Below are positions 43,954 to 59,674 of a stretch of 64,000 nt of DNA, in pieces. The notes under the pieces were generated by a model. That model was not told the DNA's origin and searched no databases. It was given only the letters and a program-made list of their open reading frames with translations. How positions within the stretch are numbered: position 1 is the stretch's first letter; each line of letters opens with the position of its first letter. A program made the translations under genes and the position numbers. Source of the DNA: Ignavibacteria bacterium (lineage in GTDB: Bacteria; Bacteroidota; Ignavibacteria; Kapaibacteriales; UBA961); contig VGWD01000002.1 in NCBI GenBank assembly GCA_016873735.1, forward strand, positions 1 to 64,000, in the 5' to 3' direction.

Positions 43954-46164
43954 ATGAGATCAATCGCGCTAATTCTGTTTTTGTGCATGGCTTGGAGTCA
44001 TGAAACTCTTGCAGGCACCATACGTGGAAGAGTCATCGATTCATTGGATGCCATACCATTATATGGGGCAACCATTCGCATTGAAGGAATGCAATTGGGG
44101 GCACGATCAAATGCCGATGGGAATTTTTCTATACAAGCTATAAAACCCGGAAATTATCGCCTGCTCATATCATATGTTGGGTATAAGTCAGTAAACATAT
44201 CAGTTGCAATTCCCACCGATAATTCCACTGTGAACATCACCATTTCACTTCTTCGTAAAGATGTGAATTCCAATGCCATCATAGTTTCTGCCGGAAAAAG
44301 AACTCAATCCATTCAAGAAGTGCCGGTTTCTGTTGCATTGCTTGATCAACAATCCATTCAACAAAGAAATGTCAATCGCATCGATGAAGTATTGCGTTAT
44401 GTCTCGGGAGTGAATGTGGCAAGAGATCAAGTGAGCATCCGTGGTTCATCTGGATTTGCGCTTGGCATTGGCAGCAGAGTTGCATTATTGCTTGATGGTT
44501 TTCCTATGCTCAGTGCAGACAATGGAGACATGAAATTTGATGCACTTCCAATGCCTGAAATACAAAGAGTTGAAGTGGTGAAAGGCGCAGGATCTGCTCT
44601 TTATGGCACTGGAGCTCTCGGCGGAGTTGTTTCACTGTTTACCAGAACTCCCGCAGATACAGCTCGCATCATGATCCGGAGCTATGCCGGAGTCTATACG
44701 CAACCTGCTTTTGATCAATGGGTTGTTCATGATGCGCCCCCTCCATTATATGGATTGGACATAAGCTATAGCCAACGTTTTGATAATCTTGAATTCACAC
44801 TTCTTGGTGGCACCAGATATGATAAAAGTTATCGTTTGACCGATCAATCAAGAAGATATAATGCTTTCTCGAAAATCTCCTATACATTTGATGAGCATGC
44901 CAGAACAACATTGACCGGCATTATCAATGTGGCTCATGAAGATAAGGGAGATTGGGTGTTTTGGAATTCGCTTGATAGTGCAACCAGACCTCCGACATCT
45001 TCAAATCCTGATAGGATGACATTATCATCCAAAGCCATGATGGGATTCAATCTTCGACATCTTTTCAATGACAATGGAATATTGAATATTCGATCGGGCA
45101 TTTTTCTTACTGATTTCGATAATTATAACTTATTACCGAATGAAGAAGCCGTTGCCAGCAATGCCCAATCATTCAATTCAGAAATTCAATATTCCAGGTC
45201 TTTGTTCTCGGATGTGTTCCTGACAACCGGTCTGAATGTAATTGTCAATAGAGTTGAAGCTCCCATATATGGAACGAAACAACAACGTTTTATTTCCGGT
45301 TATGCTCAAACGGAGATCAAACCGGGGATTGAAGGTCTGATCATGACTATCGGTGGACGAGTCGATCATGAACAAACCGAAGATGCTGATCAACATTTTG
45401 TGATATCTCCGAAAATAGCAGGTAGTTGGATTGCCCCTTTCGGTGTACAATTCCGTGCATCGGTTGGCCGTGGTTTTCGGGCAGCAACGGTTGCCGAACG
45501 TTATGCGGCACTTAGATTCCAAGGGATTACTGTGCAACCGAATCTCTCAATCAGACCCGAATACAGCATTTCATATGAAGTTGGGGCTTCAACGGCATTA
45601 CCTTTAAGCGAAAGTGCCGACATGCTATTGATGGATATTGCCGTATTCAACAATGCAATGGATGATTTGGTTGAACCTTCATTTACCGTTACCGGAAATG
45701 TCCAATTTCTAAATGTGACGGCAGCACGAGTACGGGGAATTGAGATTGGTCTACGAACACAATTATCAAATGGATTCGGAATTGAAACTTCATTGACCTA
45801 TATGGACCCTGTTGATCTGACCCTGAATCAAACTTTGCCATATCGATCTTCAATTCTTTGGTATTCGCGTTTGTCGATTCCGATCTTTGAGCATATCCAA
45901 TTCCAAACTGATTATCGATATCTCAGCAGAGTTGAATTGATCGATGCAAGAATTGCTGCTTTGGGATTTATCGCCGATGCAGATGCACGCGTTGCTATTC
46001 ATGTGTGTGATATGCGTCTTATCATGAACATGCAATCAATGATCGGCACTCCATTGACATTGACATTGAATGCAAAGAATGTCTTCGATTATTATTACTC
46101 TGAAATCATGGGTAATCTCGCACCAAACCGACAACTATCAATCCAGGGAGAGATATTGTTATGA
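43954..46164 (+). CDS. TonB-dependent receptor with CarboxypepD_reg-like domain
   Basis: 736-residue outer-membrane receptor. Signal peptide (1-20), CarboxypepD_reg-like domain (GRVIDSLDAIPLYGATI, about 24-105), plug (QEVPVSVALLDQQSI, VSIRGSSGFALGIGSRVALL and the end VEVVKGAGSALYGTGALGG, about 110-225) and a 22-strand-type barrel. The size and plug resemble siderophore/cobalamin-type receptors more than SusC. Its last 4 nt overlap the PhoD-like phosphatase start (ATGA). No riboswitch was recognised upstream. Substrate unknown; coupling suggests a phosphorylated or phosphate-releasing nutrient. Confidence 0.9.
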   Translation: MRSIALILFLCMAWSHETLAGTIRGRVIDSLDAIPLYGATIRIEGMQLGARSNADGNFSIQAIKPGNYRLLISYVGYKSVNISVAIPTDNSTVNITISLLRKDVNSNAIIVSAGKRTQSIQEVPVSVALLDQQSIQQRNVNRIDEVLRYVSGVNVARDQVSIRGSSGFALGIGSRVALLLDGFPMLSADNGDMKFDALPMPEIQRVEVVKGAGSALYGTGALGGVVSLFTRTPADTARIMIRSYAGVYTQPAFDQWVVHDAPPPLYGLDISYSQRFDNLEFTLLGGTRYDKSYRLTDQSRRYNAFSKISYTFDEHARTTLTGIINVAHEDKGDWVFWNSLDSATRPPTSSNPDRMTLSSKAMMGFNLRHLFNDNGILNIRSGIFLTDFDNYNLLPNEEAVASNAQSFNSEIQYSRSLFSDVFLTTGLNVIVNRVEAPIYGTKQQRFISGYAQTEIKPGIEGLIMTIGGRVDHEQTEDADQHFVISPKIAGSWIAPFGVQFRASVGRGFRAATVAERYAALRFQGITVQPNLSIRPEYSISYEVGASTALPLSESADMLLMDIAVFNNAMDDLVEPSFTVTGNVQFLNVTAARVRGIEIGLRTQLSNGFGIETSLTYMDPVDLTLNQTLPYRSSILWYSRLSIPIFEHIQFQTDYRYLSRVELIDARIAALGFIADADARVAIHVCDMRLIMNMQSMIGTPLTLTLNAKNVFDYYYSEIMGNLAPNRQLSIQGEILL

Positions 46165-48086
46165 ACATGATCTATGGACTATTCATCATGTGTTTCGGAT
46201 ATAGTATAACATTTGCCGATTCAACCATTGTTTATGAATATGGAAGATTGGCAAAAACTACGAATGATGCATTACCTTTTGACCCCGCACTTAAACCTTT
46301 TTATCATGGTGTCGCATCAGGGGATCCACTGTCCGATAGAGTGATCATCTGGACTAGGATCACACCTGAAATGGACGGTCCAACGGAAGTCTCCTGGGTG
46401 ATTGCCACGGATCCTGCATGCTTGCAAGTTGTGCAATCAGGAAAGGTGATAACAGATCAAGGCAAAGATTATACTGTTAAAGTGGATGTAGCAGGTTTGC
46501 AGAGCGGCATGCATTATTATTATCGCTTTGGCCATGGAACTGTTTCTTCACTGATTGGTAGAACCAAGACAGCAGCGACTGAGTCAGTCTCTGCATTACG
46601 TTTCGGCATAGCCTCCTGTGCAAATTATCAACAAGGGTTTTTCAATGCTTATGCACATATGGCAATGAGAAATGATTTGGATGCCATTTTATTTCTTGGT
46701 GATTATATTTATGAATATCAAGCAAGAGGATATGGGTATTCTGAGAAAGTAGGAAGATTACATATACCTGAACAAGAAGCTGTCACATTGAATGATTACA
46801 GGATTCGTTATTCTTTTTACCGACTTGATCCCGATTTACGCAGACTTCATCAATTGCATCCATTTATTGGTATATGGGATGATCATGAAACTGCCAATGA
46901 TTCTTGGCCGGGCGGAGCGGATAATCATCAAGCAACCGAGGGTGATTGGGATCAAAGAAAGCGCGCCGGAAAAAAAGCATTCATGGAATGGTTGCCCATT
47001 AGAGAACAAGATACATTGGGTACCATTTACAGAAGATTATCATATGGACCATTATGTGAACTCTATATGCTGGACACGAGATTGGAAGGCAGAGATAAAC
47101 CAATGGGACCCAAAGATACCACCTCAAGTGCCATCGATACTGCCATTTGGCAAAGTCCTGACCGAACATTGCTGGGGAAAAAACAATATGACTGGTTAAC
47201 TTCATCTTTGAAGCAAACAAGCGCAACATGGAAAGTCATAGGCAATCAAGTAATGCTCATGCCATTGGACGGTTTCACCAATCAGGATTCTTGGGAAGGA
47301 TATCCTGCTGAAAGAAAGGCCTTATTGTCAGGTTTTCGAAAAGACCTCATCAATAATGTGATTATTGTAACCGGTGACATTCATAGCACATGGATTTCCG
47401 AATTGCCAATTGAAAAAAATGATCCTGCATATCAATCTTCAACAGGCAAAGGTTCAACATCGGTTGAATTTGTAACGCCAAGCATCACTTCAGCCAATAT
47501 CAATGAATTATTGAATACACCGCCCGGATCATTGCAAACGCAGTTTTTGATCTTGCAGGCAAAGACATTGAACCCACATATCAAAGATGTGGAGCTTGAT
47601 AGTCATGGATATATGATCCTGAATCTTACCCCGGAAAAAGCACAAGCTGATTGGTACTTTGTAGATTCCACAACAATCCGCAGAAAAGGCGAAAAATTCT
47701 ATAAAGGATTTCAAACATTGATTGGAACAAATACTTTGCAGCAGGCAAGTTCAGAGATTGCAACCAGGCCGGGTGGTCCGGTTGATCCTTCTGATACACC
47801 ACTTTCCATCAATGAAGAAATCCCTGCATTGGCCATAGGTAATTATCCAAATCCATGTTCTGATCACACGCTCCTTCATTATGTGATGGCAAAAGAAGCA
47901 CATGTGACCATTCAAGTGATCGATATCAATGGGAATGAAGTTCTTCGTCCACTGCATGCATTCTTCCATGCTCCCGGACCATATGCTGCAAGAATTGATA
48001 TTTCTTCGCTTCCAACGGGTACATATTATTATCGTTTGCTCATTGGCACCTCAATCATCACACGGACAATGACCATCATTCATTGA
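46161..48086 (+). CDS. PhoD-like alkaline phosphatase with T9SS sorting domain
   Basis: 641-residue exported phosphatase/phosphodiesterase of the PhoD family. N-terminal signal peptide, PhoD N-terminal sandwich (about 45-145, GVASGDPLSDRVIIWTRI), metallophosphatase core with GIASCANYQQG, FLGDYIYEY and WDDHETANDSW, and VTGDIHSTW near residue 410. A C-terminal T9SS type A-like domain (about 560-641, starting IGNYPNPCSDHT) predicts surface attachment or release rather than Tat-only export. It overlaps the TonB receptor by 4 nt. Probably hydrolyses phosphate esters/diesters outside the cell, with product uptake by the receptor as a hypothesis. Confidence 0.9.
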   Translation: MNMIYGLFIMCFGYSITFADSTIVYEYGRLAKTTNDALPFDPALKPFYHGVASGDPLSDRVIIWTRITPEMDGPTEVSWVIATDPACLQVVQSGKVITDQGKDYTVKVDVAGLQSGMHYYYRFGHGTVSSLIGRTKTAATESVSALRFGIASCANYQQGFFNAYAHMAMRNDLDAILFLGDYIYEYQARGYGYSEKVGRLHIPEQEAVTLNDYRIRYSFYRLDPDLRRLHQLHPFIGIWDDHETANDSWPGGADNHQATEGDWDQRKRAGKKAFMEWLPIREQDTLGTIYRRLSYGPLCELYMLDTRLEGRDKPMGPKDTTSSAIDTAIWQSPDRTLLGKKQYDWLTSSLKQTSATWKVIGNQVMLMPLDGFTNQDSWEGYPAERKALLSGFRKDLINNVIIVTGDIHSTWISELPIEKNDPAYQSSTGKGSTSVEFVTPSITSANINELLNTPPGSLQTQFLILQAKTLNPHIKDVELDSHGYMILNLTPEKAQADWYFVDSTTIRRKGEKFYKGFQTLIGTNTLQQASSEIATRPGGPVDPSDTPLSINEEIPALAIGNYPNPCSDHTLLHYVMAKEAHVTIQVIDINGNEVLRPLHAFFHAPGPYAARIDISSLPTGTYYYRLLIGTSIITRTMTIIH

Positions 48087-56791: not shown

Positions 56792-59206
56792 TCAGAATTC
56801 GAGTTCTGCACCAACTATGACCATTCTTCTTTGACCAGGAAAAAATTCTTTTCCTTCCGCGCCCGATGCATAGAGCGTATCAAACAGATTATTCACTTGT
56901 AGGCGCAAGCGAAGCGATTGCATCGGACCTCCGATAGACATGATGGAATGATCGATGTCCAACCCAAAAACGGTATATGCATCCACTATATTATCCGCAT
57001 AATAGCCATTAAATGAGTTTTGCAAATCGGTGATCAATGCTTGATTATTGATGAGATCATCATCAAAATTATCGGAACGGAATGAACCGATATGTCTCAT
57101 ATTGAGTGAAATGCCTGTTGTTTGATTGCGATATCCGATGCGCATCATCCCCATGAAATCAGGGAATCCGGCAATGCGATTACCATTGAGTGAAATGGAC
57201 TTGCCATCGCCCGTGAAATAATTCATGTCCACGATTCGATTATATCCCATCGTGAGATTTCCGGCGATTTCAATTGCATTGCCATTGTATATGGGGAATG
57301 ATTTCCATCCTTCGAGTTCTAACCCGATATGTCTTGTGCGTGGTGCATTGCCATCTATGGGTGCGCCAAAAATATCGAGTCTTCCACTTTTCACGAGTTC
57401 ATCAAAAAATTCCATTGCATAACCGGTGATGTCAAAGCGTTCAAATTCGGATGCATGATGCCAGCCTAGTTCGAGATTCAGCATGGATTCGGGCTTGACA
57501 AGTGGCTTCGTAAAATCAAAACCATTCGTGGAATCATTGATTGCAATGTGTTCAAAAAGTGGCATTGCGCCGAAATAGGAATCCGATGCGGCATAGAGAT
57601 TGCGCATCCTAGGCTCACGAGAAGTATAGGCAAGCGAAGCAATAATGCGCTCTTTATCATTCAGAGCATAGTGCATACCGATGCGTGGATTTGCAAAGAG
57701 ATAATTGATGGAGAATAATTGGTCGCCATTGCCGATTATGGAATCATTCGATGACTTGTATGAAGTAAAAAAATATCCTGCTTTTTCATTCTCGATGCCA
57801 TAATTATGATGCACGATTTGCAATTCTCCTTGCAGCATCATGCGATCGCTTACTTGAAATTCTTCTCTTGCAAATGCCGAGAGAATGGTCCGCATGCCAT
57901 TATATTCATAGATATTGAAATCGGGATCGAATCCTTCAGGTAAACCCTCCGCATAGTGAATAGATCCCCTATGTTGAGATCTATGCGAACGAATTTCAAG
58001 TCCTGTTGTGAGTCTTCCACCCGCATGTTCCCAGACAAGTCTTGGAATCCAACCACCCTGTCGATTGCCTACAAAACCCCGCACGATAGCATTGCCGATT
58101 ATAGGATTTCCGGAAACTCCAAATTCCGGGGTGAGTCGTAATGTCGCGGCATCCGCCCAAGAAGCATCATAATCAAAATAGCCATCACCTGTATAATAGA
58201 AGAGCGTTGATTTGAGCGAAAGATTCGGAGTTATGGACCAATCATTCAAGATCTCATAATGTGGCTGAGAGAATTCTTCGATCTCTTGCAAGCGTCTTAT
58301 GCCTGACCAAGACATCTCTCTGCCGGTTGAATCATAAGCCCAACCATTGAGATTGGATCTGCGTAGTGCGGGATTCTGAATCCATGCTTTGGGTATGCCC
58401 GTATATGCGAGTGCATCACGTACGGGACCGCCATATACATTGATTTGCGTTGTGAGACGATCATCAAATCGCGATGCACTCAGAAAATAACTTTGCAAGC
58501 GCGCCCAAGAATGTTGTCTATATCCATCGGATTGAATTGAGGTGAGTCTTGCTGATAGCGCATATCGATTATCGATGAGTCCACTTTGCAATTCAATAGA
58601 TGATTTTGAAACTGTTGCTGCGAATCTATCATCACCGGTCAAGGCATCTCCATATTGCTGAAAACCAAGGAATTGCGAATATCGAATCGCTGATTCATTG
58701 ATACCTGAAGAAGTCAATACGCTCACGCTTCCAGCCATCGCTGCAGCACCATAATTCATGAGTCCCGCACCGCGTTGCACTTGCAAGCGATCTGTACTTG
58801 CGAGTAAATCAGGCATATTGATCCAATAGACATTATGATCTTCGGGATCATTTTGCGGAACACCATTGATCATCACCGCAATTCTTCTTTGATCGAAACC
58901 ACGAAGAGAAATGGAGGTATATCCGATATTATTTCCATTTTGAGACACCGCATAAATCGAAGGGAGCATCGACAAATGCTGGGCAATATCTTGTACGGTA
59001 TAGGAATTCTTGATTTCTTGAACGGTTATGTCTGAAAATGTGGCCGTGGATTTATCATCTGCCGTTGTGGAACTCACCGTTACACTTGGCGTGACATAGG
59101 TTTTGATCCTGCTGGAATCAATTGATTTATGCTGTGAAAATGCAGAGTTCGATGCAAGCAGAAATAACAAGATGTGAATCATAATGGAATCGGAATAGTG
59201 AAACAT
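56792..59206 (-). CDS. TonB-dependent receptor, TPP-riboswitch controlled (thiamine-type)
   Basis: 804-residue outer-membrane receptor. Signal peptide (first about 25 residues, ending NSAFSQ), a short linker, a plug (about 45-170, with ISLRGFDQRRIAVMINGVPQ and VQRGAGLMNYGAAAMAG), then a barrel to the C-terminal VIVGAELEF with terminal Phe. There is no CarboxypepD_reg domain, unlike the other two receptors here. A TPP riboswitch lies in its leader at 59255-59335, so expression should fall when thiamine pyrophosphate is plentiful. This fits uptake of thiamine or a precursor, as for the Omr1-type receptors described in Bacteroidota. No thiamine biosynthesis or PnuT gene is adjacent. Confidence 0.9.
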   Translation of the reverse strand: MFHYSDSIMIHILLFLLASNSAFSQHKSIDSSRIKTYVTPSVTVSSTTADDKSTATFSDITVQEIKNSYTVQDIAQHLSMLPSIYAVSQNGNNIGYTSISLRGFDQRRIAVMINGVPQNDPEDHNVYWINMPDLLASTDRLQVQRGAGLMNYGAAAMAGSVSVLTSSGINESAIRYSQFLGFQQYGDALTGDDRFAATVSKSSIELQSGLIDNRYALSARLTSIQSDGYRQHSWARLQSYFLSASRFDDRLTTQINVYGGPVRDALAYTGIPKAWIQNPALRRSNLNGWAYDSTGREMSWSGIRRLQEIEEFSQPHYEILNDWSITPNLSLKSTLFYYTGDGYFDYDASWADAATLRLTPEFGVSGNPIIGNAIVRGFVGNRQGGWIPRLVWEHAGGRLTTGLEIRSHRSQHRGSIHYAEGLPEGFDPDFNIYEYNGMRTILSAFAREEFQVSDRMMLQGELQIVHHNYGIENEKAGYFFTSYKSSNDSIIGNGDQLFSINYLFANPRIGMHYALNDKERIIASLAYTSREPRMRNLYAASDSYFGAMPLFEHIAINDSTNGFDFTKPLVKPESMLNLELGWHHASEFERFDITGYAMEFFDELVKSGRLDIFGAPIDGNAPRTRHIGLELEGWKSFPIYNGNAIEIAGNLTMGYNRIVDMNYFTGDGKSISLNGNRIAGFPDFMGMMRIGYRNQTTGISLNMRHIGSFRSDNFDDDLINNQALITDLQNSFNGYYADNIVDAYTVFGLDIDHSIMSIGGPMQSLRLRLQVNNLFDTLYASGAEGKEFFPGQRRMVIVGAELEF

Positions 59207-59254
59207 GACTATTCCGCAAGAGGGGAGAAACTCAATGTAGCATTTGAGTGTTTA

Positions 59255-59335
59255 CGTTTTCCTACGCCGGTATAACCCGGATCAGGTTCAAAGAGTATGA
59301 TCTCAGCCGAAACATCGATTTCGGCACCTCCAACG
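59255..59335 (-). promoter_or_regulatory. TPP (THI-element) riboswitch
   Basis: Read on the minus strand, the conserved TPP aptamer is nearly complete: GGTGCC...GGCTGAGA, CTTTGAACCTGATC and CGGCGTAGGAAA, with P1 closed by CGTT (59335-59332) and AACG (59258-59255). The P2-P3 arm (GCCGAAA/TTTCGGC) and the P4-P5 arm (CCGG/CCGG) pair well. Downstream, ACTCAA and TTGAGT (around 59230-59250) form a possible expression-platform helix, followed by a pyrimidine-rich stretch and the receptor ATG at 59206. Confidence 0.93.
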
Positions 59336-59341
59336 GACCAA

Positions 59342-59372
59342 CAAAAGTACGTGATTTGCATCTCACGGCAAA
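59342..59372 (-). promoter_or_regulatory. Promoter of the TPP-riboswitch/receptor transcript
   Basis: On the minus strand TTTG (59372-59369), N19, then TACTTTTG (59349-59342): a full Bacteroidota-type promoter. The predicted start near 59335 coincides with the 5' side of riboswitch helix P1. Confidence 0.65.
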
Positions 59373-59416
59373 GTTCGAAGGAAATCATTATTTTACGACA
59401 AACAAGAGAGCTGAAC

Positions 59417-59674
59417 ATGGAAATATTTGTTTGCAAAGGATATTCAGGCCAGATTTACAGAGTCAATGTCAATGAACATATGATCATTGAAGAGATTATC
59501 CCGGTCATTTCTGAGAGTTTGGGTTTTTATTCTTCAAATGAAGATAGAATCGGTATGTATAATCTCACACGTGATTGGGAATATTTCCCTCAAGATACCT
59601 TATTGTCTCGCGGTACTACTTCCGGTGATCTCATCATCCTGGCAGATGGTGGTGGTTGCCATAAAAATGAGTGA
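59417..59674 (+). CDS. Small ubiquitin-fold (YukD/EsaB-like) protein
   Basis: 85-residue protein that reads as a beta-grasp (ubiquitin-like) domain. Two N-terminal strands (MEIFVCKGYSG, QIYRVNV), a helix with the pattern IIEEIIPVISESLGF, then YNLTRDWEYFP, DTLLSRGTTSGDLIILAD as the last helix-turn-strand. The ordering matches YukD/EsaB proteins (L..G...GD.L.I) better than ThiS/MoaD. The tail is GGGCHKNE, so a glycine run is present but not terminal. No WXG100 or ESX genes, E1, E2 or JAB-protease gene is nearby. Start at the ATG 59417; upstream frame overlaps the receptor leader. It lies 5 nt before the next lipoprotein gene. Confidence 0.62.
   Translation: MEIFVCKGYSGQIYRVNVNEHMIIEEIIPVISESLGFYSSNEDRIGMYNLTRDWEYFPQDTLLSRGTTSGDLIILADGGGCHKNE

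Follow-up and report, generated by a model that had tools for sequence, protein, structure and literature searches.

A TPP riboswitch leads a probable outer-membrane thiamine receptor in an Ignavibacteria bacterium without detectable ThiC and ThiE

The window analyzed here, a 64,000-nucleotide stretch of contig VGWD01000002.1 from an Ignavibacteria bacterium of the order Kapaibacteriales (assembly GCA_016873735.1), very probably encodes a TPP-riboswitch-controlled outer-membrane thiamine receptor of the Omr1/OMthi kind, in a host that is without ThiC and ThiE and takes up intact thiamine. At the level of sequence, we identified the aptamer, a conserved receptor, a single PnuC/PnuT-family protein and a single thiamin pyrophosphokinase (TPK), and no ThiC or ThiE. 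In the proposed route, thiamine would cross the outer membrane through the receptor, powered by TonB, would cross the inner membrane probably via the PnuC/T-family protein, and would then be converted to TPP by TPK. The two central features of the window are:

59242 to 59341, minus strand: TPP riboswitch aptamer (RF00059), full-length cmscan (Infernal) match of 73.1 bits, E 1.7e-12.
56792 to 59182, minus strand: TonB-dependent receptor, Omr1/OMthi-like (Plug PF07715 at E 1.7e-15; 18 orthologous loci; barrel model).

A nearly complete TPP aptamer had been proposed for this leader in a preliminary description, and a covariance search returned an RF00059 match at 59341-59242 (minus strand) that spans the model from position 1 to 105, end to end, and fits the range given earlier (59240-59345); its score compares with a gathering score of 54.3 bits. 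By covariance model, the element at 59242-59341 is a TPP riboswitch and is predicted to bind TPP. It is the only RF00059 match in the genome (2,256,930 bases in 61 contigs, 99.89% complete). The ORF directly downstream, 59206-56792, carries the Plug domain, which places the aptamer in the leader of a TonB-dependent receptor as described. Among the displayed neighbors of the receptor there is neither a thiamine biosynthesis gene nor a PnuT-like gene, in agreement with the earlier remarks that no such synthesis gene and no inner-membrane transporter lie next to it.

The receptor comprises 796 amino acids when read from the ATG at 59182 and 804 when read from the ATG at 59206. The former is the more likely start on comparative grounds, because a conserved hairpin holds the ATG at 59206 in its loop and neither of the two closest relatives, L004 (a 90%-identical ortholog) and L019, has this codon, whereas the ATG at 59182 is conserved. 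Plug is matched in the window protein and in all 16 aligned members, and a barrel domain in 14 of these 16, although not in the window protein itself in the domain search. An AlphaFold model of the receptor (pTM 0.68) shows the barrel at fair confidence and a poorly modeled plug. Compared with the PDB, this model matches TonB receptors, the best being E. coli PqqU/YncD (15% identity, TM about 0.6), an importer of a small cofactor that differs from the window receptor in its ligand; the low-confidence plug bears on this comparison. From domain match and model together, the protein is a TonB-dependent receptor composed of plug and barrel. Structure prediction, put forward earlier as a check, thus gave a TonB-receptor barrel, but the fold search provided no pointer to the ligand, the model resembling TonB receptors in general. 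The Pfam domain search found no CarboxypepD_reg domain in the window receptor, as had been stated, and none of the 16 orthologs in the alignment has a match to this family either, so that its absence does not single out this copy. A second TonB-dependent receptor in the window, at 43954-48086, has CarboxypepD_reg domains and overlaps by 4 bases with a gene for a PhoD-like phosphatase bearing a Por secretion tail; the two are likely a phosphate-scavenging pair.

Receptor-encoding loci number 18 in named genomes (L003 and L019 being two gene ends from one genome), and the nearest named relatives are metagenome-assembled genomes labeled Ignavibacteria, Kapabacteria or Candidatus Kapaibacterium. 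A TPP riboswitch precedes the receptor in every one of the 17 orthologous loci with upstream sequence; 16 exceed the RF00059 gathering score, and the remaining one, L015, scores 48.8 bits (E 1.6e-7). Exactly one TPP riboswitch per genome is present in 13 of the 14 genomes of the GTDB family, and in a phylum sample 15 of 28 further riboswitch loci lead a receptor relative (29-51% identity). Two more distant relatives tie the receptor to thiamine through their gene rows: in L015 the weaker aptamer is followed by the receptor, TPK and a PnuC/T-family gene, and in L100 the row consists of receptor, TPK and PnuC/T-family gene. Conservation, the riboswitch at 17 of 17 loci and these rows lend good support to the earlier assignment to the TPP-controlled, Omr1-type receptors. 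We also inspected the receptor neighbors of the relatives for a shared thiamine partner, and the proteins encountered (RRM, SET, PASTA, M23, EPSP synthase, Band 7 and an outer-membrane barrel) suggest none. A conserved gene for a 154-aa RRM-domain protein follows the receptor directly and on the same strand in L011, L016 and L017. On the other side, divergent from the receptor, 59369-59674 encodes a small protein (∼85-100 aa, no Pfam match) whose position is conserved in relatives such as L004 and whose cluster occurs in eight loci.

A search did not find ThiC in the window's genome or in any of the 14 family genomes, and the same search finds ThiC in 13 of 14 control genomes. For ThiE, the sole match fell below the cut-off, and the ORF containing it reads, from its sequence, as IMP dehydrogenase. 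Judged by gene content, a host without ThiC would be unable to make the thiamine pyrimidine, and without ThiE would be unable to couple pyrimidine to thiazole. TPK is encoded once in the genome (C4:105691-105978) and is present in 13 of the 14 family genomes; with TPK present and ThiE absent, the useful import would be intact thiamine. The host is therefore most likely a thiamine auxotroph that imports intact thiamine by way of the receptor, then probably PnuT, then TPK. TPP riboswitches control transporters of thiamine precursors too in other bacteria, and on that precedent the receptor might import hydroxymethylpyrimidine or thiazole, as a precursor or breakdown product, in place of thiamine. 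We consider this very improbable, since such a compound would not be converted to thiamine phosphate without ThiE, TPK uses intact thiamine, and in L015 and L100 the receptor adjoins TPK, an enzyme acting on thiamine.

A TPP-led receptor route of this kind is known elsewhere. Bacteroides thetaiotaomicron depends at low thiamine on the TPP-led receptor OMthi (BT2390) and on PnuT once synthesis is deleted (PMC5613172). The window's genome shares with the OMthi/pnuT-tnr3 system a TPP-led TonB receptor, a PnuC/T-family protein and a thiamine pyrophosphorylating enzyme, and in both organisms the transporter gene lies apart from the receptor. However, B. thetaiotaomicron makes thiamine and has a TPP riboswitch of its own on pnuT-tnr3, whereas the window's genome is without ThiC and ThiE, has a single TPP riboswitch, and carries its PnuC/T-family gene and TPK apart from each other. 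The genes corresponding to pnuT and the pyrophosphorylating gene are thus in the genome but away from the receptor; they adjoin it in L015 and L100. Omr1 receptors, which have served to mark marine thiamine uptake (PMC12442306) and are likened to the window receptor by description, share the role of an outer-membrane receptor assigned to thiamine uptake. The TPP-led receptor arrangement is already known from related bacteria, and the window is a well-preserved example of it.

The preliminary description held the uptake path to be incomplete. This stands within the window but not for the genome, where TPK lies elsewhere and a search for pnuT yielded one PnuC/PnuT-family protein (C2:187517-188065, locus L020; PF04973 at E 2.9e-52), encoded on the same contig as the riboswitch and 128 kb from it. 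We consider it probable that this protein carries thiamine. The competing explanation, in which thiamine does enter through the receptor but the PnuC-family protein transports nicotinamide riboside, leaving the inner-membrane step to something else, appears fairly unlikely. A score above the PnuC equivalog cut-off speaks for this alternative. In a tree of 41 members, whose long branches prevented a clear placement, the protein does not group with the TPK-adjacent members; it also aligns with 4QTN, a solved nicotinamide riboside transporter. Neither an RF00059 match nor TPK is found at L020, leaving the gene without TPP control or adjoining thiamine genes there, and a residue comparison on the alignment gave no separation of PnuT from PnuC. 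Against a nicotinamide riboside function, the PnuC/T genes of relatives adjoin TPK and the receptor, and NadR is not found above cut-off in the window's genome (G000) or its family, the matches covering only the first profile positions (at most 61 of 325). The absence of NadR speaks mildly against nicotinamide riboside use; the test is a weak one, as NadR exceeds the cut-off in just 2 of the 14 control genomes.

PnuC/T-family proteins occur in 10 of the 14 family genomes. The other four (G001, G002, G003 and G007) have neither a PnuC/T-family protein nor ThiC but do have the TPP riboswitch and TPK, G002 being listed as 100% complete, and these riboswitch-bearing genomes argue for another inner-membrane carrier. 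That part of the family uses a thiamine transporter that is neither PnuT nor of another described family seems unlikely, if worth considering. Beside the PnuC/T-family gene, and overlapping its start, lies a 394-aa ORF with no Pfam match (L020:311-1495, on G000:C2). It is retained in this position at L035-L039, loci of the genus, although the match in L037 is confined to a short piece. Its sequence looks outer-membrane barrel-like, and it is a possible second partner of the PnuC/T-family transporter.

The leader also contains a candidate expression platform, the elements of which are:

59327 to 59336, minus strand: CCGUUGGAGG, the P1/P2 5' strand and also one side of the putative anti-P1 helix (Rfam alignment; complementarity test across relatives).
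59214 to 59223, minus strand: CCUCUUGCGG, the putative anti-P1 strand, complementary to 59336-59327 in 9 of its 10 nucleotides (p=0.010 in the window leader).
59191 to 59216, minus strand: CGGAAUAGU...ACUAUUCCG, a start-proximal hairpin and putative part of the platform (comparison of genus leaders).

The start-proximal hairpin is present in all genus leaders examined. One of its pairs is changed on both sides in L024 and L025 (GAAUAG/CUAUUC to GAAUAA/UUAUUC), and the stem is longer in L008, L010, L012 and L018, where it takes in a Shine-Dalgarno-like GAGG or GGUGG. A CCUC...CGG strand complementary to the P1/P2 5' strand is conserved in relatives and lies at 59223-59214 in the window. Summed over 18 leaders, this complementarity reaches 342, against 273 (SD 8.7) for dinucleotide shuffles, a z of about 7.9 that overstates independence because the leaders are related; seven control stretches within the aptamer or just upstream gave z values from 0.0 to 3.0. 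Taken singly, the leaders of the window, L034, L010, L012, L014 and L017 give p values of 0.005-0.02, and those of L013, L025, L033 and L018 give no signal. The predicted folds of the window leader lie at -45.0 kcal/mol with the anti-P1 helix, -45.6 kcal/mol for the best fold and -40.2 kcal/mol with the ligand-free aptamer. As the plain leader fold is not unusually stable (z -1.06), the case for a platform comes from the comparison of relatives.

This comparison suggests that the anti-P1 helix and the start hairpin likely form a translational expression platform of the type known from E. coli thiC. With ample TPP, the ligand would bind the leader, P1/P2 would form, the start-proximal hairpin would close and translation would be lowered. 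When TPP is scarce, the P1/P2 5' strand would pair with CCUCUUGCGG and the aptamer would open; the hairpin, at its base, would face competition from this pairing, and the receptor would be synthesized. In E. coli thiC, formation of an anti-P1 stem is incompatible with P1 as well as with the stem masking the ribosome site (PMC5234074), and the window leader has in common with it a downstream strand that would compete for the P1 5' strand and for a stem hiding the start. It differs in that the platform is inferred from sequence, that it precedes a receptor gene and not a synthesis operon, and that the overlap is partial, as most of the start hairpin can coexist with part of the anti-P1 helix in the predicted fold.

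Control by transcription termination is an alternative mode, and in a relative, L030, a T run does come after the hairpin. The window has AUUCC at this place and no T run, which favors translation over termination, and its sole terminator-like match is located 5' of the aptamer. The OMthi transcript of B. thetaiotaomicron, moreover, does not change significantly with thiamine (PMC5613172). We therefore regard termination as unlikely and the translational switch as the better account of this leader.

These observations extend the route through TPP-controlled receptors to a mostly uncultured lineage that has received little study. They also provide a translational switch that can be tested, in a phylum for which the way TPP riboswitches act was described as uncertain in 2017 (PMC5613172). 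The sister genomes that lack a PnuC/T-family protein expose a gap at the inner membrane. As all 14 family genomes are without ThiC, thiamine may be a growth factor to supply in culture.
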